This document shows positions 4,403 to 15,416 of a stretch of DNA of 37,486 nucleotides, one piece after another. The notes under the pieces were generated by a model that was given only the letters and a program-made list of their open reading frames with translations, made no database searches and was not told the DNA's origin. Numbering within the stretch: position 1 is the stretch's first letter; every line of letters begins with the position of its first letter. The stretch comes from a virus. The stretch is taken from positions 1 to 37,486 of the IMG/VR virus record IMGVR_UViG_3300029309_000117. The stretch is one strand, 5' to 3'. The position numbers were made by a program, and so were the translations under genes.

Positions 4403-4855
4403 TTAAAGATATAAGTAACCAGTAAATCCGCCATCATTGCCTGCACGTTGTAAAACTGTTTCTGTCTGGGTAAGGATGTTATACCTTACGCCTTTCGCGG
4501 GGCTACTCCAAGCTGCGGCCTTGAAAACATCGCCTGTGTTCTTATCAATGAAAGCGTGAACACTTGCGGCAACATAACCCGCAGGGGCGGCGTTGATTCT
4601 GCCAAATTGTGCATCGTCTTTGTATTCCATAACAACAACTTTCAAATATCTTTTGCCGATGATGAAAGTGAAATAATCAGGATGATCTTCTGGCTTATAG
4701 TTGCCGTTTTCATCTAAATAAAGATCGCTGTAGTTTCCATCTTCTTTATCAAAACGAATCTTTTTCATCCATCCCGCTCTAGCTTCTGTAAGAGTTTCGC
4801 AAAGCTGTTGAGCTAACTTTTGAACTTGTTCTGTTTGTGTTGTTATAGTTGTCAT
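4403..4855 (-). CDS. Conserved phage protein of unknown function, 150 aa
   Basis: A 150-residue protein. The N-terminal helix (residues 1-25) precedes a predicted alpha/beta domain with GKRYLKVVVMEY (about 67-78) and the conserved-looking VHAFIDKNTGDVFKAAAWSS (about 99-118) leading to GVRYNIL. I recognise 'HAF.D..TGDV.K...W..PAKGVR.N' from many unrelated phages, where it remains uncharacterised. It is a single-gene transcript with its own consensus promoter and SD-less leader (4856-4925) and its own terminator, so it is independent of the structural operon although embedded in it. Confidence 0.75.
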   Translation of the reverse strand: MTTITTQTEQVQKLAQQLCETLTEARAGWMKKIRFDKEDGNYSDLYLDENGNYKPEDHPDYFTFIIGKRYLKVVVMEYKDDAQFGRINAAPAGYVAASVHAFIDKNTGDVFKAAAWSSPAKGVRYNILTQTETVLQRAGNDGGFTGYLYL

Positions 4856-4929: not shown

Positions 4930-5289
4930 CTAGAAATTGTAATCGTGAAACTTGCGCCATCCTTGGTTAATAACTGTGCGCCTGTTGCTTCCTTTCAAGT
5001 ACCATTCGTTGTCTTTGCCAAGATATGCTTCTTGAATAGCGCCTTTAGGATTTTCTGTGATAATCCATCTTTGCTCATTGTTGTTTGTGCAATGCGCGGC
5101 GAATCCTCCGATGATCTGTTTAGGTTTCCAAGTAGGGTCAAGCTTGGCGTTTGCTTGTTGAATCTTGATGCGCTTGCCTTTTCTTTCGATAACTGTGAAA
5201 GGGTCAACGTCTGTGTAGTAACAGATGTTCACCTGATCGCCGACCTGAAAGTCTTTGTGATCGGCGGGAACTGTGTAAGGTTTGAACAT
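4930..5289 (-). CDS. Conserved phage protein with SH3-like N-terminus, 119 aa
   Basis: A 119-residue protein. The N-terminal VGDQVNICYYTDVDPFTVIE (about 16-35) and KGKRIKIQQANAKLDP form a small beta-barrel-like segment. The C-terminal EWYLKGSNRRTV...W.KFHDYNF is an aromatic/basic end. This two-part pattern (GD.V.I.Y..D..P.TVIE...K.I.IQ ... R.W..F.DY.F) occurs in many phages as a hypothetical protein. Its ATG overlaps the stop of the 46-residue gene upstream and is preceded by GGGAGG, so it is the second gene of the promoter at 5430-5485. Confidence 0.7.
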   Translation of the reverse strand: MFKPYTVPADHKDFQVGDQVNICYYTDVDPFTVIERKGKRIKIQQANAKLDPTWKPKQIIGGFAAHCTNNNEQRWIITENPKGAIQEAYLGKDNEWYLKGSNRRTVINQGWRKFHDYNF

Positions 5290-9092: not shown

Positions 9093-10433
9093 TTAATATA
9101 TTCTAATGCCTGTTTTGCGCCCTGCCCCCAAATGTAAGGGATTGAAGCAACGCCAACAAAGATAACGAACACAATCAGAGAAATGATCTAGCCCTGTTTT
9201 TTCTGGTTCGCCCGCTTCTGTATAACTTTGAAGTTCAAGCGATTCAATAACATTTTTACAACGCGGATGTATAAACAGATTAACTTCTTCTTTACCATTG
9301 CATAACAAGCGCTGAACATTATTAACGCTGTCCTTAATGGATGGATTAGACGCGCCCGATTGATTGGATATTCCGTAACTTTCAAGAATCTGGATGTCGG
9401 TTTTCGTAGCGTTTGTTGATCTTGCTCCGCCTGAAGAATCAGGATATCCGTAAAGTCTGTTGTGTACAAACCTTGATTTGATTTCTTTTGCCAGTTGGTC
9501 GGTGTCATGTGCGCGAATCTCATCAAAAATAAAAAGCTTGTTATCTTTAATCACCGCGCAAACACAGGACATCTTGCCAATATTAAAGTCGATTCCAAGT
9601 CTTATAATTTCGTCTGAATAGTTTGGGATGTCTGTTGTTATATGTTTTTCTCTGTCGAAGCGATCGAAGACGGCGCCAGTTGTTAAAGATATGAACTGAC
9701 CCTCAAGGTAAGCCTTAAGTAAATTCGGGTCAAAGTTCAATTTCATTCTATCAATAAAGTCAGCGGGCAAATGTGGATTGTCTGTTGTTTTCATTCTTAT
9801 TAACTTTCTATCTGTTTTATTTTTGGCTTCATCAGAGCCAAATGTTTCATAAAACCATTTATAACCTTCAGGAGTGGACGCCGCCGCGAATTGACGAACC
9901 TTACCGGCGCGAAGACGTCCAAGTATTTTAGGAAAGGCTCTATCACAAATAGATTTTGCAACTGTGTCTATTTCGTCCGCACAGCACCAAGCCGCGTTAA
10001 TTCCTATAATCCTTTGCCATGATTCAAAACTTCGACACATTATGCGGGTGTCACCTTTTGGAAGATGAAGAATGAAATCGGGAAGAGGTGAAGATTTAAA
10101 ACTATAAGGAATTTCGTAATTCAATAAAAATTCTTCAAATTCAGCAACAAATAAATCTCTTACCAGCGGTTGCGTAGGTTCTAAAACTATTCCAGTAAAG
10201 CCTTGATTTAATACAGAAAGGTAGAAACATTTTGCTAATAATGATCTTGTTTTGCCTGATCCATATCCTGCACATAGTCCTAAAATTTCAGTTTTTGTAT
10301 CGTTTACAAAATTAAGCTGTCCTATATGTAAATCTTTTTTTATTCTTTGTAAGGTTAAATTTATATTTATAGAATCTGTAAAATTTTCAGGATGTAAAAC
10401 GTAACCTTGCTTTACATCAGTTAAAAAACTCAT
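9093..10433 (-). CDS. terL: Terminase large subunit
   Basis: A 446-residue packaging motor. The ATPase has a Walker A variant AGYGSGKT (55-62), a Walker B ending in DE (CCADEID, catalytic E at about 154) and a coupling motif AAASTPEG (about 183-190). The nuclease domain begins at LGIDFNIG (Asp at about 282) with a second Asp at YPDSSG (about 332). I place the start at the ATG at 10433, which overlaps the small-subunit stop as ATGA. An upstream in-frame TTG is less likely. It cuts concatemeric DNA and pumps it through the portal encoded next. Confidence 0.93.
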   Translation of the reverse strand: MSFLTDVKQGYVLHPENFTDSININLTLQRIKKDLHIGQLNFVNDTKTEILGLCAGYGSGKTRSLLAKCFYLSVLNQGFTGIVLEPTQPLVRDLFVAEFEEFLLNYEIPYSFKSSPLPDFILHLPKGDTRIMCRSFESWQRIIGINAAWCCADEIDTVAKSICDRAFPKILGRLRAGKVRQFAAASTPEGYKWFYETFGSDEAKNKTDRKLIRMKTTDNPHLPADFIDRMKLNFDPNLLKAYLEGQFISLTTGAVFDRFDREKHITTDIPNYSDEIIRLGIDFNIGKMSCVCAVIKDNKLFIFDEIRAHDTDQLAKEIKSRFVHNRLYGYPDSSGGARSTNATKTDIQILESYGISNQSGASNPSIKDSVNNVQRLLCNGKEEVNLFIHPRCKNVIESLELQSYTEAGEPEKTGLDHFSDCVRYLCWRCFNPLHLGAGRKTGIRIY

Positions 10434-10750
10434 GAACAAAGATGTGCTAATTTCGCGGCTGTATTTATAGCACCTAAAGCAATATGATATTGCCCAGACC
10501 TTCTAGCTTCCATTTGTAAGGTGCTACATTGCGCCAAAAGATCAGCAATCATTTGAGGTCGTTCTATGTCCCAATCCCTCTTCAACTCTGCTCTGGCTAT
10601 GTTTAAATACTTATCTACAGTTCTTTCTCCAACCCCCCAATTTTCGGCGGCATAGCGAACACAGTCTGATCTACGGCCACCATTTGCAATAATTCGAGCA
10701 AATTTCTGTGACCTTACGACAGTTTCAGCTTGAGTTCCTTTTTTTGCCAT
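10430..10750 (-). CDS. terS: Terminase small subunit
   Basis: A 106-residue helical protein directly upstream of the large terminase and overlapping it by 4 bases. Residues about 20-50 (NGGRRSDCVRYAAENWGVGE, RTVDKYLNIAR) form a helix-turn-helix of the kind used by small terminases to bind packaging sites. The remaining helices (MIADLLAQCSTLQMEARR) would drive oligomerisation. It follows the Mom-like gene after 19 bases, so terminase and DNA modification appear to share a transcript. Confidence 0.83.
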   Translation of the reverse strand: MAKKGTQAETVVRSQKFARIIANGGRRSDCVRYAAENWGVGERTVDKYLNIARAELKRDWDIERPQMIADLLAQCSTLQMEARRSGQYHIALGAINTAAKLAHLCS

Positions 10751-10769
10751 ATTTATATTATTACCACAA

Positions 10770-11441
10770 TTATTGGAGCGTCTGGGTAGGTGCTGCCCCT
10801 CCGATCTTGTCAGGGGTACTGACTAAATCCTGCTTCAGACGCTTAGGGTAAGGCAAAGCCTTCTTAATAAGAGTATCACGCAATTTTTGATCTAGAGGAA
10901 ATAAATAACGATATTTCTGAGAACCTTGAACAATTTCTAATCCTTTATCTATAAATTTTAGATGTGATCCATGCGTTTTTCTGAAAGCTCTGCCGTGCCA
11001 TCTTTTCCCTTTAAATAAATATTCGTCAGCAGCATTAGATTTTCCATCATAAATCCAATTAGTTGCTTGATAAATACCGCCATGATGATTTTGTTCTATA
11101 TCTGCAAAAGAAACAACTAATTTTATTTTAGGATTAGATTTTTTTAAAAATTTCAAAGCAATAGAAATTATTTTTGAAACAGGAGTTTTATGTATTTTCA
11201 AGGCAATTCTTACAAGCTCGCAAGATTCTGTTTGATCGCATCCATAAGGCTTACCTAATGACTTATTTGCACCTCTACCAAAAAGAACAACACCAATAAA
11301 TTTATTTTCCTCCCAAACTCCTATCTTAACTAGTTTACCTACAGGCAAACATTTACTGTAATGCCAATTAAGACAAGCAAATTTTGTCGCTTCATAAGTA
11401 GCCCAATCAAGTTTTAAACTAAATTTGTTTTGTAAATTCAT
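10770..11441 (-). CDS. Mom-like DNA-modification acyltransferase (copy 1)
   Basis: Phage Mu Mom is a GNAT-fold enzyme that converts adenine to a methylcarbamoyl form and protects DNA from restriction. Here 223 residues contain NWHYSKCLPVGK (about 25-36), GVWEENKFIGVVLFGRGA (41-58), CELVRIAL (74-81) and the hallmark SFADIEQNHHGGIYQATNWI (111-130) followed by YDG. The C-terminus has KYRYLFPLD and PYPKR. I choose the ATG at 11441, since the longer frame would start at TTG (11468). The gene overlaps the ParB-like gene by 23 bases. Plausible substrates (adenine, other acyl donor) are inferred from the family only. Confidence 0.75.
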   Translation of the reverse strand: MNLQNKFSLKLDWATYEATKFACLNWHYSKCLPVGKLVKIGVWEENKFIGVVLFGRGANKSLGKPYGCDQTESCELVRIALKIHKTPVSKIISIALKFLKKSNPKIKLVVSFADIEQNHHGGIYQATNWIYDGKSNAADEYLFKGKRWHGRAFRKTHGSHLKFIDKGLEIVQGSQKYRYLFPLDQKLRDTLIKKALPYPKRLKQDLVSTPDKIGGAAPTQTLQ

Positions 11442-11931
11442 ATCCACATTTAGGGCATTGACAGTCAATTTCTTTTTTATCTAAACGATCTAATTGTCCT
11501 TGATCGTCAACTGATCCAGTATCAAACTCTGGAGATTTAACTCCTAACTTTTCTAAATCTTCACTATCAAAGAAATCGTTTAAATCATGCTCTTTTGATA
11601 ATTGTTCAAGCATATCTATATCCCACACTGCAAGATCACCAGTTCTGTTATCTGCTATTGCTAATCCTACTTTTTGATCTTCTGTGAGGTTTGATCTTTT
11701 AACAGCAATTATTTCATCGCCATTTGCTTCTATTATTTTTAAGTTTTTAATCCCTGCGGCTTTAGCCCCTGCGATTGTTCCATTGCCTGCAAGAATACGA
11801 TTGTTTTCATCAATTACGATTGATCTTGCCGCACCATATTGTTCTAAACTTTGTTTTATAAGCTTTGCAGATCGGTCAGTACGTTTACGAGCATTTTTAG
11901 GATCGTTGTATAAATCGTTTATTGAAGTCAT
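11419..11931 (-). CDS. ParB/sulfiredoxin-like protein with C-terminal zinc ribbon
   Basis: A 170-residue protein. Residues 1-60 look like a ParB N-terminal domain: DLYNDPKNARKRTDRSAKLI, GAARSIVIDENNRILAGNGT and IAGAKAAGI, where GNGTIAGAK replaces the usual GERR-type box. DNRTGDLAVWDIDML follows. The C-terminus has CQCPKCGYEF, three cysteines of a probable short zinc ribbon. Phage proteins of this kind often precede DNA methylases. Here it precedes and overlaps a Mom-like gene, so it may be a nuclease or a CTP-binding partner in DNA modification. It is the first gene of the minus-strand packaging block. Confidence 0.7.
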   Translation of the reverse strand: MTSINDLYNDPKNARKRTDRSAKLIKQSLEQYGAARSIVIDENNRILAGNGTIAGAKAAGIKNLKIIEANGDEIIAVKRSNLTEDQKVGLAIADNRTGDLAVWDIDMLEQLSKEHDLNDFFDSEDLEKLGVKSPEFDTGSVDDQGQLDRLDKKEIDCQCPKCGYEFTKQI

Positions 11932-11960
11932 ATTTTAAATATATATCATGAAATATGGAG

Positions 11961-12017
11961 TTGACATCTTAAAATAATTATATTATAATTAAATTGTAAA
12001 CAAACCAATTAAACCAA
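11961..12017 (+). promoter_or_regulatory. Consensus promoter with SD-less A/C-rich leader (copy 1)
   Basis: TTGACA (11961-11966), a 17-bp spacer and TATAAT (11984-11989), then a leader TTGTAAACAAACCAATTAAA that runs to the ATG at 12018 without a Shine-Dalgarno site. It lies in the 86-base divergent spacer at the head of the plus-strand early block. I see no equally good promoter for the minus-strand ParB-like gene in the same spacer. Confidence 0.88.
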
Positions 12018-12188
12018 ATGATTAAACTAGGAACTCAAGTTCAACACAAACTACACGATGACGTTAATGGCGATGTAGTTCAACTAAACAGAAAAAGCAA
12101 TACCGCTACTGTTAAATTTTGGAATTACCAAGATGAATTAATGCTTGCGAGTGTATATTTATCTGATTTAGAGGAGGTTGCACAATGA
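12018..12188 (+). CDS. Small SH3/KOW-like protein, 56 aa
   Basis: MIKLGTQVQHKLHDDVNGDV, then VQLNRKSNTATVKFWN and an acidic end VYLSDLEEVAQ. The alternating pattern (G..V.H......G.VV......TA.VKF) suggests a small beta barrel of the SH3 or KOW type, like the protein at 15078-15296. It is the first gene of the early transcript, has an SD-less leader, and its stop overlaps the next start (ATGA). Function unknown. Confidence 0.6.
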   Translation: MIKLGTQVQHKLHDDVNGDVVQLNRKSNTATVKFWNYQDELMLASVYLSDLEEVAQ

Positions 12189-12316
12189 GCAATTTTCTAA
12201 TGATGCTTGCAGCTTCAGGAGTATTTTATCTGGGGTTCAGCGATGCTTTAACTCAAATGAGTGAATATGATTGCCGCGTTGGGAATGTACAAGCGGCTTG
12301 CGAGGTGTTGAAGTGA
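12185..12316 (+). CDS. Small membrane-type protein, 43 aa
   Basis: An ATG at 12185 has GAGGAGG seven bases upstream (inside the preceding gene). It encodes MSNFLMMLAASGVFYLGFSD and a tail with two Cys (DCRVGNVQAACEVLK). The hydrophobic first 18 residues could be a membrane anchor or signal segment. The stop overlaps the next gene's GTG start. Unknown family. Confidence 0.6.
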   Translation: MSNFLMMLAASGVFYLGFSDALTQMSEYDCRVGNVQAACEVLK

Positions 12317-13041
12317 ATAAAAGATATGACTATAAAGATCAAGAATTTAATTTAAAGATGAGAGTTAAGTTCTTAGAAAAGAAACTAAGGGAACCCGATC
12401 ATGATGTTGACAAGTATCAAGAATGGGAAAGTAATCTCGAAATGGTTACTGATGAACTTACAAAACTACAAGTTAAGAAGTTTAAATATTTTCTTGGCAA
12501 GTGGGTTCATAACTTTAAAGAACAGAATCAATTAATTAATGTAATTGATTGTATGTTTGTTGCCCTTGAAAAAACAGATCAAAAAGATGTTGCGATGAAA
12601 TGGTATATGAGAGTGACAGACCCGAAGGAAACAAGATGCCTTGAAAAGCTATTGGAATATAAAACGGCGGAGGTCAATATGTGGAAAGCAAATATCAAAA
12701 AGATTAAGCAACAAAAAAATGAAGCAAAACAACTTTTAAAAAAACAATGTAAAGAATCTATTAAGCAAAGTAAGGAAATGATGTCGCGTAATTACGATAC
12801 ATTGTTAAGACAACACGTTTTAGAATTAAATCATTATAAAAATAAACATGACGAAAACCAAAATATTCTTGAAGCTATGAAGGAACGAATACATACATTA
12901 GAAAGAGAAAAATATGACTTACAAGAAAAATTAAAAAAGATAGATGCGATGCAAGAAGAGATTGATAAAAGAGCAGAAGTGTATAAAGAAGGCTTGATTA
13001 AATCAGGCTTGAAAAACATTTTACAAAAGGAGGATTCATGA
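12313..13041 (+). CDS. Coiled-coil protein, 242 aa
   Basis: The start is the GTG at 12313, overlapping the previous stop and preceded by GAGG, rather than upstream in-frame codons that would lie inside the previous gene. The N-terminus (NKRYDYKDQEFNLKMRVKFL) and a mid-part with VHNFKEQNQLINVIDCMFVA are helical. Residues from about 120 to 235 form a long Lys/Glu/Gln coiled coil. No enzyme motif is visible. It is the first large product of the early block, with its 3' end coupled to the next gene (ATGA). Function unknown. Confidence 0.75.
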   Translation: MNKRYDYKDQEFNLKMRVKFLEKKLREPDHDVDKYQEWESNLEMVTDELTKLQVKKFKYFLGKWVHNFKEQNQLINVIDCMFVALEKTDQKDVAMKWYMRVTDPKETRCLEKLLEYKTAEVNMWKANIKKIKQQKNEAKQLLKKQCKESIKQSKEMMSRNYDTLLRQHVLELNHYKNKHDENQNILEAMKERIHTLEREKYDLQEKLKKIDAMQEEIDKRAEVYKEGLIKSGLKNILQKEDS

Positions 13042-13406
13042 AAGATCAGGAACAGTTAAAAGCAATTAATCAATTATTGGCTTTGGTTATTGGTGGGCGT
13101 ATTGCAAGACAAACTGAACATTTAAAAAGCGCTCCTTTGAATCGCGTTAATCACGCTGAAAAAATAATTGCTGATAAGGAGTTACAGGAAGCTACAAGAG
13201 ACTTGCAAGATGGTTATGAAGATGCGTCAAAAAAAATTTCACAGATACAAAGAAAACTGGAAAGTTTAGGAAGTTTAAAAATATTAGCGGAAATGGTTGA
13301 AGGAAATATAAGGGATGCGGCGCTTGCTGCTATAACAGAAGGTGCAAATTCTGATGGATATTTGTTTGAAGAATATAACGATTGGGAGAATAAAAATGTT
13401 CACTAA
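13038..13406 (+). CDS. Helical protein of unknown function, 122 aa
   Basis: The ATG overlaps the previous stop and has AAGGAGG upstream. It is predicted mostly helical: QLKAINQLLALVIGGRIARQ near the N-terminus, then a charged helix (EATRDLQDGYEDASKKISQI) and an acidic C-terminus (EEYNDWENKNVH). No recognised domain. It is part of the four-gene early transcript from the promoter at 11961. Confidence 0.7.
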   Translation: MKDQEQLKAINQLLALVIGGRIARQTEHLKSAPLNRVNHAEKIIADKELQEATRDLQDGYEDASKKISQIQRKLESLGSLKILAEMVEGNIRDAALAAITEGANSDGYLFEEYNDWENKNVH

Positions 13407-13602
13407 AGCTCAACAAAAAATTTTAAAAGAATGTCTTACTTATGGAATACAAAGGCAAGAAAAACTTCTTCGACATATTCTCAGAGATGAACCACAAACA
13501 CCTGATGAAGTAAAAGGATTTGTTGAACTAAAAAGACACTTAGAAAGAAGAATTGAAGCGCATGAAAAATTAATAAAAAAATTAAATAAAGAATTTAATT
13601 GA
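13396..13602 (+). CDS. Small helical protein, 68 aa
   Basis: I start it at the ATG at 13396 (GGGAG eight bases upstream), overlapping the previous gene by 11 bases, because the longer frame from 13342 lies inside that gene. The protein MFTKAQQKILKECLTYGIQR ... RRIEAHEKLIKKLNKEFN is a helical hairpin. Its TGA stop forms part of the next promoter's TTGACA. The first 13 bases of the gene belong to a 26-base sequence repeated at 14133-14158. Confidence 0.65.
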   Translation: MFTKAQQKILKECLTYGIQRQEKLLRHILRDEPQTPDEVKGFVELKRHLERRIEAHEKLIKKLNKEFN

Positions 13603-13654
13603 CAATACTAATCAATTATATTATAATTAATTTGTAAGCAAACCAATCAAACAA
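13599..13654 (+). promoter_or_regulatory. Consensus promoter with SD-less A/C-rich leader (copy 2)
   Basis: TTGACA (13599-13604), a 17-bp spacer, TATAAT (13622-13627) and a leader TTGTAAGCAAACCAATCAAAC before the ATG at 13655, with 33 bases from -10 start to ATG. The -35 box overlaps the stop codon of the preceding gene. It lies exactly 200 bases upstream of copy 3. Confidence 0.9.
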
Positions 13655-13795
13655 ATGTTATTTAATCGTTCAGCTTTAATAGCTTTAATTAATGAAAACC
13701 CACAACTTTGGGAAGTAGAATTTGATGGAGATATAAAAAAAATTAAGTCAATAAAACCGATGAATCCTAAACATATAGTAAATGAGCAGGATTGA
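13655..13795 (+). CDS. Small protein, 46 aa, single-gene cassette
   Basis: MLFNRSALIALINENPQLWE then VEFDGDIKKIKSIKPM and a polar end. It is enclosed by two copies of the promoter cassette (13599 and 13799), so it appears to be expressed with its own promoter. No domain recognised. The absence of a ribosome site is shared with the other cassette-led genes. Confidence 0.6.
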   Translation: MLFNRSALIALINENPQLWEVEFDGDIKKIKSIKPMNPKHIVNEQD

Positions 13796-13798
13796 TAG

Positions 13799-13854
13799 TT
13801 GACAATATTATTTAATTATATTATAATTAATTTGTAAGCAAACCAAACAAACCA
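13799..13854 (+). promoter_or_regulatory. Consensus promoter with SD-less A/C-rich leader (copy 3)
   Basis: TTGACA (13799-13804), a 17-bp spacer, TATAAT (13822-13827), leader TTGTAAGCAAACCAAACAAA then CCA-ATG at 13855. It begins 3 bases after the previous stop. The -10 to ATG distance is 33 bases. Confidence 0.9.
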
Positions 13855-14133
13855 ATGCAAATCGAAACAGACTTAACAAAAGAACAAACCCATTACTTGA
13901 TTGATCTTTTAAATAAAGATTATGTTCAATTAAGAAAATTCAAAAAACAACTTATCAAAAATACACCTCCTGAAATTGTGGCTGAAGATGTAAAAGTTTT
14001 GGTTGATAAATGTCGAACCGCAATGATGGAAAATGAAACCATATGCCACAAATTAGACGATCATTTAACAGACATTAGCAGAGGTTATAAGTTAAACATT
14101 GATAAAGAATGGAAAAACAAATGCTTAAAATAA
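13855..14133 (+). CDS. Helical protein of unknown function, 92 aa
   Basis: MQIETDLTKEQTHYLIDLLN, then a basic helix YVQLRKFKKQLIKNTPPEIV and CRTAMMENETICHKLDDHL. It looks like a three-helix protein related in style to the 68-residue product at 13396. Unknown family. Led by promoter copy 3. Confidence 0.65.
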   Translation: MQIETDLTKEQTHYLIDLLNKDYVQLRKFKKQLIKNTPPEIVAEDVKVLVDKCRTAMMENETICHKLDDHLTDISRGYKLNIDKEWKNKCLK

Positions 14134-14158
14134 TAAGAATGTTCACTAAAACTTAACA
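14133..14158 (+). repeat. 26-base imperfect repeat of 13390-13415
   Basis: ATAAGAATGTTCACTAAAAC then TTAACA matches the start region of the 13396 gene (ATAAAAATGTTCACTAAAGC then TCAACA) at 23 of 26 positions. Here the ATG would give only MFTKT before a stop, so it looks like a remnant of a duplicated gene start, or a shared leader element for the gene at 14160. Confidence 0.5.
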
Positions 14159-14159
14159 G

Positions 14160-14402
14160 ATGATTATTGAAACCCCTTCTTTGCTTTCCCCTTGCGGTTC
14201 ATATCAGGTTGACTTCTTCCCAATAAAAGGTCAGCCTGATCTTTTCTTTCGTATAGGAACATTTAATGGGATAACAGAATTTAAAGAAACAGTAAATAAA
14301 GCTGAAATGTTAAGAGATATAGAACGCAAAAGATTTAGATATTTTAAAACAATTCAAATAAATAGAATCCCGCAAATTTATGAAACAAAAGTATTCAATT
14401 AA
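14160..14402 (+). CDS. Unknown protein upstream of Mom-like copy 2, 80 aa
   Basis: MIIETPSLLSPCGSYQVDFF then PIKGQPDLFFRIGTFNGITE, a beta-rich N-terminal half, and a charged helix (KAEMLRDIERKRFRYFKTIQ). It overlaps the following Mom-like gene by 23 bases in another frame, suggesting coupled translation. No clear ribosome site. A role together with the modification enzyme is possible by position only. Confidence 0.55.
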   Translation: MIIETPSLLSPCGSYQVDFFPIKGQPDLFFRIGTFNGITEFKETVNKAEMLRDIERKRFRYFKTIQINRIPQIYETKVFN

Positions 14403-15081
14403 AAGTGTTAAAAATTCAGAATGTAATGAATGGTTTTTAAAAAAACACTATGCGCGAAGATTGCCGAATATAAATTGCGCTTTTGGGTTATATGACAATT
14501 TAAATTTATTACAGGGTGTTTGTAGTTTTGGGCGGCCGATGAGCCACACGTTAATATCTGGCGCAGTAAATGGATTATATCAAGATAATTTTCTTGAATT
14601 GAATAGACTAGTTATTAATGAGGGATTAGAAAAAAATGTTCTTAGCTTTTTTGTTTCTGGTTGCTTGAATAAGTTGCCAAAGCCGTTAATTGTTGTTTCT
14701 TATGCCGATACTTCGCAGGGGCATCATGGTTTTATATATCAGGCGACAAATTGGATATATACAGGATTAAGCGCAAAGTTTAAAGATTACGCTGTAAAAG
14801 GTCTTGAACATATGCACCATAGTTCAATTGAAGATAGTGTTGGCCGTTATGACGAAAACAAAAATATTAATAAACATGAGTTACTAAGAAAAAAATACGG
14901 CGATAGATTGTACATGAAAGAACGCCCGCGAAAACATAGATATTTTTATTTTTTAGGTAATAAAAAAGAAAGACAGATTATGAATAAAAACTTGCAATAT
15001 AAAGTAAAACCATACCCGAAAGGCAACAACAAAAGATACGATGCAAGTTATGTTCCGAGCGTTCAAGGTGTGTTGTTTTAA
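14380..15081 (+). CDS. Mom-like DNA-modification acyltransferase (copy 2)
   Basis: A 233-residue protein with LKKHYARRLPNINCAFGLYD (about 20-39), ELNRLVIN (73-80) and the family hallmark SYADTSQGHHGFIYQATNWI (107-126) followed by YTG. The C-terminal KHRYFYFLG and KPYPK match copy 1 (KYRYLFPLD ... PYPK). Compared with copy 1 it lacks the GVWE.NKFIGVVLFGRGA block, having QGVCSFGRPMSH instead, and carries an extra basic stretch (RKKYGDRLYMKERPRKHRY). It is probably a paralogue with a different acyl donor or timing. It is on the opposite strand, in the early block, and ends tail to tail with the 15078-15296 gene. Confidence 0.72.
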   Translation: MKQKYSIKSVKNSECNEWFLKKHYARRLPNINCAFGLYDNLNLLQGVCSFGRPMSHTLISGAVNGLYQDNFLELNRLVINEGLEKNVLSFFVSGCLNKLPKPLIVVSYADTSQGHHGFIYQATNWIYTGLSAKFKDYAVKGLEHMHHSSIEDSVGRYDENKNINKHELLRKKYGDRLYMKERPRKHRYFYFLGNKKERQIMNKNLQYKVKPYPKGNNKRYDASYVPSVQGVLF

Positions 15082-15296
15082 GTCAAAGGCTTTAATGTAT
15101 GCTGCGCGTGTTCTGATGTTCTTTTATCATCCCATTGAACCCTGTAATATTGATGCTTGAAACCAAGGCTGTTTTGCTTTGTGAATACTTCTATTATTTT
15201 TCCGCTTATGTAACGTTTGGGAATGTTTGAAGAAGTGAAAGAAACTTTTTTGACGCGTTGGCCTAGTTGATAACGTTGGCCTACAAGTTCTGGCAT
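15078..15296 (-). CDS. Small SH3/KOW-like protein, 72 aa
   Basis: MPELVGQRYQLGQRVKKVSF, then RYISGKIIEVFTKQNSLGFK and HQYYRVQWDDKRTSEHAQHT, ending LKPLT. The G..V..V.........G.I..V.........YRVQWDD pattern is that of a small beta-barrel (SH3/Tudor/KOW-like) protein often found in phages. It is the only minus-strand gene in the early block, convergent with Mom-like copy 2 (4-base overlap) and divergent from the 15417 gene. Confidence 0.65.
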   Translation of the reverse strand: MPELVGQRYQLGQRVKKVSFTSSNIPKRYISGKIIEVFTKQNSLGFKHQYYRVQWDDKRTSEHAQHTLKPLT

Positions 15297-15357: not shown

Positions 15358-15416
15358 TTGACAATATAATTTAATTTTATTATAATAAGAATGTAAGCGA
15401 AACAAACCAAACCAAA
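15358..15416 (+). promoter_or_regulatory. Consensus promoter with SD-less A/C-rich leader (copy 4)
   Basis: TTGACA (15358-15363), a 17-bp spacer, TATAAT (15381-15386), leader ATGTAAGCGAAACAAACCAA then ACCAAA-ATG. The -10 to ATG distance is 36 bases, slightly longer than copies 2, 3 and 5. Confidence 0.88.

Follow-up and report, generated by a model that had tools for sequence, protein, structure and literature searches.

The analysed stretch of DNA, an entire public virus record of 37,486 bases (IMG/VR IMGVR_UViG_3300029309_000117; here called the window), encodes two enzymes of the Mom family. One, MomA, lies on the minus strand at 10770–11441 (223 amino acids from the ATG at 11441; a TTG at 11468 is also a possible start) and is linked to a ParB-like gene; the other, MomB, is a stand-alone gene on the plus strand at 14380–15081 (233 amino acids). 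In bits, both reach about five times the cut-off of the Pfam Mom family PF25680 (27.1 bits): MomA scores 152.6 bits (E = 1.4e-44) and MomB 134.9 bits (E = 3.9e-39). Both also match PHROG 1384, 'Mom-like DNA modification protein', while an NCBIfam search returned chance matches only. A search of the whole record yielded exactly these two Mom genes. The preliminary description of this DNA had proposed the same two genes and a pair of shared motifs, S.AD..Q..HHG.IYQATNWIY.G and PYPK; the open reading frames are present, their family matches bear them out, and the motifs prove to be conserved columns across the whole Mom family. What kind of phage is this? Its capsid protein is 73–76% identical to those of the marine cyanosiphoviruses KBS-S-2A, MED4-184/MED4-117, P-HS2 and S-H1, whose hosts are Synechococcus and Prochlorococcus, and its large terminase has the same nearest relatives, from which we infer that it probably infects marine picocyanobacteria. 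We consider it reasonably probable that this genome carries two independently acquired anti-restriction modules of one enzyme fold—MomA late and ParB-partnered, MomB early and stand-alone—which most likely differ in targets and timing. This reading rests on family membership, fold, conserved residues, selection, separate ancestry, slot exchange, ParB linkage and promoter placement.

By sequence, each protein has a single significant match in the PDB, phage Mu Mom (8bv8), which is likewise the best fold match of both AlphaFold2 models (pLDDT 80 for MomA, 83 for MomB), with Z 19.4 over 187 aligned residues and a root-mean-square deviation of 3.7 for MomA, and Z 18.6 over 157 residues and a deviation of 2.2 for MomB. 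It leads by a wide margin, the next matches being other GNATs at Z ~12–13, and the GNAT fold of Mu Mom is present in both models. The crystallized protein is the inactive S124A mutant; in the alignment, S124 corresponds to S89 in MomA and, likewise, to S89 in MomB, and H58/Y59, D149 and Y159 of D108/Mu Mom correspond to H27/Y28, D114 and Y124 in MomA and to H23/Y24, D110 and Y120 in MomB. Residues S124, H58, Y59, E108, R111, D149, Y159 and Y217 of D108 Mom are all kept in both copies, as are the invariant residues of the family (the H-Y pair, E..R, A-D, Y-Q-A and a late Y). The loss of catalytic residues from one copy, which the preliminary description had raised against itself, was thus not observed in the alignment to D108/Mu Mom. 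Measured against the window genes, close relatives gave ratios of nonsynonymous to synonymous substitution (dN/dS) of 0.05–0.08 for MomA and 0.03–0.14 for MomB, and each gene is under strong purifying selection. Together, the intact conserved residues and these ratios rule out that one copy is a decaying pseudogene.

By sequence, MomA and MomB are only distantly related (30% identity over 220 positions, 68.9 bits) and fall into two separate ancient lineages. In a tree of 63 Mom rows, MomA belongs to a 25-row clade with 100/100 support, and in 20 of these rows a ParB-like gene directly precedes the Mom gene; MomB stands among 33 rows, none with a ParB-like gene upstream, and 31 of these form a clade with 99/94 support. 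Presence of the ParB-like gene requires 4 changes on this tree as compared to 17.7 in shuffles. For five MomA-clade rows (four Pseudonocardiaceae, one Rhodobacteraceae), no ParB was found even at a low threshold; the Pseudonocardiaceae genomes carrying a MomA-clade gene with no detectable ParB are L206, L210, L211 and L213. Since the copies sit in separate, well-supported clades, a duplication within the genome is ruled out, and two old lineages have been brought together instead. The separate lineages, the two independently exchanged slots and the ParB-like partner of MomA described below all go beyond the two divergent enzymes seen at first.

The ParB-like partner of MomA (11419–11931, minus strand, 170 amino acids) matches PHROG 620, ParB-like (E = 2e-29), and several more ParB-type PHROGs, which identifies a ParB_N-type domain; Pfam assigns it no family, ParB_N staying under threshold, but homologous partners do reach ParB_N. 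Its C-terminal tail reads VDDQGQLD...CQCPKCGYEF. The last ParB codons overlap the start of MomA: ParB terminates within the reading frame of MomA, whose ATG in turn falls within the codons of the ParB Cys knuckle. As only this short knuckle is found there, we make no claim of a Com-like regulator at the MomA start. In all viral MomA loci, a ParB-like gene adjoins MomA and the tail is conserved, its common form being roughly DQG.L followed by CP.C; the tail is also seen in partners from Paenibacillus, Lysinibacillus, Yersinia and Serratia, genomes that lay outside the building of the ParB model. That the tail is kept merely through its DNA overlap with the Mom start is weakened by its presence where Mom does not overlap, namely in Arthrobacter phage Martha (L114) and a Calditrichaeota locus (L204), and it is also kept before a C5 methyltransferase in Moraxella phage Mcat8 (L190). 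Beyond this last phage, ParB-like genes lie beside a DpdA-like transferase and QueC/D/E-like genes in a gut phage (reading frames assigned by inspection) and beside a glycosyltransferase in Microbacterium phage Busephilis. By analogy with the Dpd system, the partner most likely helps MomA to reach or open DNA. Two side observations concern related pairs. Gene 37 of Salinibacter phage B2_17 (L189, 2670–3173), annotated as hypothetical, matches the Mom family (E = 6e-26) and follows a ParB-like gene with a CPxCG tail. Separately, contigs L016 (843–1700) and L017 (2545–3402) contain a very divergent second Mom-family reading frame (286 amino acids, partial match) ~2 kb upstream of their ParB–MomA pair.

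How did MomA come to its place? Relatives were fetched by MomA, MomB, the large terminase TerL (9093–10439, minus strand; PHROG 2, E = 8e-40) and neighbouring genes, and compared with the proteins and DNA of the window. Directly after MomA lies TerS1 (10430–10750, minus strand; PHROG 34910, of unknown function), named a small terminase for its position before TerL and its alternation with a second type, TerS2. The space from ParB to this gene, slot 1, contains in sister phages either ParB with MomA, a fusion of ParB to an N4/N6-methyltransferase, or nothing. In three fusion-bearing phages (L027, L034 and L124), the DNA alignment runs through TerS to 10750 and picks up again within ParB at 11565. 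The exchanged segment (10751–11564, minus strand) thus comprises 814 bp spanning MomA and the ParB tail; a methyltransferase domain (~811 bp in L027) stands there instead, giving a fusion protein of 392–398 amino acids (PF01555), whose methyltransferase part varies (~46–50% between some sister phages). That an N4/N6 DNA methyltransferase can stand precisely where MomA does, next to an identical kind of ParB domain, gives indirect support to a possible anti-restriction role of the slot 1 module. Against TerS2-type phages, a larger segment is exchanged (10336–11934, minus strand), covering the start of TerL, TerS, MomA and the whole of ParB: in L028, L131 and L132 the alignment stops at 10335 and resumes at 11935–11938, and TerS2 is ~33% identical to TerS1. 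The first ~35 TerL residues (10336–10439) are exchanged along with TerS, as if the two must match.

Slot 1 cassettes track the type of TerS, being present in 10/10 TerS1 contigs and 0/21 TerS2 contigs (Fisher p = 2e-8, which, like our other slot-association p values, overstates the evidence because the contigs are related). Moreover, TerS1 at 86% identity occurs with a cassette in phages whose TerL is only 37–58% identical (L005–L008, L166), which points to movement as a unit. Might MomA and ParB then serve mainly packaging, with a modification placed at or near its start marking DNA for the small terminase? Both associations speak for this, and so do Psychrobacter phage vB_PmaS_Y8A and Mcat8, which also have ParB and a modifier just before their terminase genes. 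Yet the linkage may merely reflect neighbours travelling on one fragment, some ParB–Mom pairs have other neighbours (replication genes in the case of Microbacterium phage Antuna), and TerS2 phages package without a modifier in slot 1; we regard a packaging role as quite improbable. A broader proposal is that the ParB-like protein is a general adaptor bringing interchangeable modifiers—Mom, N4/N6- and C5-methyltransferases, TET/JBP-like oxygenases, deazaguanine transferases—to phage DNA and is here tied functionally to the small terminase, so that DNA would be modified when committed to packaging while the early second Mom would cover replicating DNA; this we put forward as speculative and, as a whole, unlikely. 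In the cultured Prochlorococcus phage MED4-184 (JF974286.1; L225, 8167–10291), slot 1 is filled by ParB together with an FkbM-type methyltransferase and a TET/JBP-like protein, the cassette lying between the early block and TerS. The TET/JBP oxygenase match stays under the Pfam cut-off (26.8 vs 34.9 bits), with PHROG naming a queuine transferase instead, and MED4-184 is a candidate for carrying a hypermodified base.

MomB occupies a second slot (14376–15083, plus strand), consisting of the gene and short flanks and absent in sister phages. The empty site is clean: in L124, L131 and L132 the alignment breaks off after 14375 and continues from 15084, the flanks being 9 bp apart, and the slot is also empty in L004 and L127. 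In L049, a MomB-type gene directly precedes the terminase genes; Mom lineages are therefore not bound to one slot. Among relatives with a TerL of at least 80% identity plus L004, and with contigs represented twice removed, all six combinations of the two slots occur: MomA with MomB once (the window), MomA with an empty slot 2 once (L004), the methyltransferase with MomB four times and without it twice, and no slot 1 cassette with or without MomB seven times each. MomB is independent of slot 1, being found in 5/8 cassette-bearing and 7/14 cassette-free contigs (Fisher p = 0.67). Marine cyanosiphoviruses, it seems, trade DNA disguises as modules.

Such independent assortment, together with the rarity of the double combination (a single genome in this sample), would also fit a passing redundancy, the recombinant genome having been caught at a moment when it carries two equivalent modules, one of which is bound to disappear. 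However, each gene is intact and, within its own lineage, subject to purifying selection, and phage Y8A independently has two Moms; we find mere redundancy somewhat unlikely. The second Mom of Y8A, ORF17 (OQ059336.1, 7125–7778; L118, 1826–2479; PF25680, E = 3e-57), is annotated as hypothetical and lies after ParB and before the terminase genes; ORF69 is the published Mom, the only one named in the published annotation (PMC10434257). In tblastn searches of 50,697 phage records, MomA found 256 records and MomB 235, at one place in each, and with Y8A queries the single record with two Moms was Y8A itself. The double-Mom state is thus rare, yet it has at least two origins, provided that the window contig is genuine. 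A literature search found no account of dual Mom or ParB–Mom modules, a weak absence given its limited coverage. A metagenomic viral record of 5,230 bases (L067, record G051) contains four Mom reading frames over the Pfam cut-off and a remnant.

When would each enzyme act? Four perfect TTGACA-N17-TATAAT sites lie on the plus strand, all within a repeated 58-nucleotide element, as compared to 0.025 perfect sites expected across the whole window. The first (11961–11989) stands at the start of the rightward early block, the second and third (13599–13627 and 13799–13827) are upstream of the MomB block, with MomB sitting behind them, and the fourth (15358–15386) follows MomB at the start of the next transcription block. 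MomA, in the leftward block with the terminase, has no such perfect site, and the GC skew changes sign at ~11.9 kb. The simplest reading of gene order and promoter placement is that MomB would be early and MomA late, and the earlier suggestion of modification both during replication and at packaging is consistent with this layout. Two more perfect sites lie on the minus strand inside the late block (5485 and 4925), just upstream of the small reading frames 4930–5289 and 4403–4855, which are probably early-expressed inserted genes.

If our reading of two stacked modules is correct, MomB, a stand-alone Mom downstream of perfect sigma-70-type promoters in the rightward early block, would act on replicating DNA. 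MomA, in the late leftward block, would form a two-part module with the ParB-like protein and act on DNA near packaging, and the two enzymes would have different target sequences. Each would bind an acyl-CoA in its GNAT fold and modify adenine at N6, the product most likely being methylcarbamoyl-adenine as with phage Mu Mom. DNA so modified would not be cut by host restriction enzymes, and both enzymes together would protect against more restriction systems than one alone. We infer the chemistry, the DNA-handling role of the ParB-like protein, the difference in targets, the timing and protection itself. With each gene in its own exchangeable slot, and one slot holding other DNA-modifying enzymes in sister phages, MomA and MomB resemble layers of armour more than copies of one gene.

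Several points weigh against this reading. Late transcription of MomA follows from gene order, no late promoter for it having been identified. The two Mom genes co-occur on one metagenomic contig only, the window record, and no independent contig bridging them was found, including any nearly identical to the window. An assembly chimera of two phages from one population would account for this and for near relatives having one gene or the other; nevertheless, the four contigs with methyltransferase and MomB argue that cassette-bearing TerS1 phages with MomB are real, and Y8A, a cultured phage, has two Moms, making a chimera very unlikely in our judgement. Lastly, nine positions are fixed differently between the MomA and MomB clades, five of them within MomA residues 80–91 around the catalytic serine (MomA/MomB: A80/V78, L81/I79, T86/N86, V88/L88, I91/F91; also G57/P53), and the C-terminal insertions differ between the lineages; given these differences, different acyl groups or a non-DNA target are possible. 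The preliminary description had envisaged two different modifications, of adenine or another base. In that event one lineage would have changed its acyl donor, adding a second modification rather than a second set of targets, and the low identity between the copies, the clade-fixed positions and the deep split in the Mom tree are in line with this. However, 28 columns are common to both clades at ≥85%, among them every conserved residue that Mu Mom also has, and these argue for a single chemistry; two modifications appear unlikely to us, and the original suggestion does not find support here.

The two genes are ordinary in kind, as members of a known enzyme family, and unusual in arrangement. 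New are the modular slot structure, the ParB–Mom subfamily and the finding that Mom and a methyltransferase replace each other next to a single ParB domain. To our knowledge, work on Mom chemistry has been confined almost entirely to phage Mu and its single gene. A small double-Mom genome, in which one Mom has a ParB-like partner that serves methyltransferases in sister phages, makes testable what sets the target choice of Mom and what the numerous ParB-like genes that neighbour DNA-modification enzymes in phages do.

How does this arrangement compare with known systems? With Mu/D108 Mom (8bv8, PF25680), both copies share the GNAT fold, all conserved residues including S124, and PYPK near the C-terminus. 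Mu carries a single mom gene downstream of com, whose product is a 62-amino-acid translation activator with a CCCC zinc finger (PMC6483171), and in D108 com overlaps mom. In contrast, the gene that overlaps MomA from upstream is ParB-like, its product bearing a short CQCPKC knuckle near the C-terminus instead of a four-Cys finger, and MomB is preceded by neither com nor ParB, the gene before it (14160–14402) being without a cysteine finger. Y8A resembles the window in having two Moms, one in the order ParB–Mom–TerS–TerL, but both fall outside the two window clades, nearer to Mu and on long branches, and its ParB is without the CPxCG tail. Enterococcus phage phiEf11, Martha and Antuna likewise have a ParB-like gene with a CP.C tail upstream of a MomA-clade gene; they differ in having a single Mom, annotated as hypothetical protein or acetyltransferase, which in Antuna lies with ParB beside replication genes and in Martha is separated from ParB by a small reading frame. 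In the Dpd 7-deazaguanine system, DpdA comes with the ParB-like DpdB, for which an ATPase role in insertion has been described (PMC12839542, PMC6392294); a ParB-superfamily protein thus also stands beside a base-modifying enzyme there, although enzyme and base are others and the ATPase is described for DpdB only, not for the window protein. Closest in placement are the ParB–DNA methyltransferase fusions (PHROG 498; Vibrio phage 1.213.O, Acinetobacter phage P711), which have the same ParB-like domain and, in the sister phages of the window, the same slot, but carry an S-adenosylmethionine-dependent N4/N6-methyltransferase fused to ParB where the window has a separate GNAT enzyme. This natural swap of Mom for a methyltransferase, with the same ParB domain and terminase, provides a ready-made comparison.

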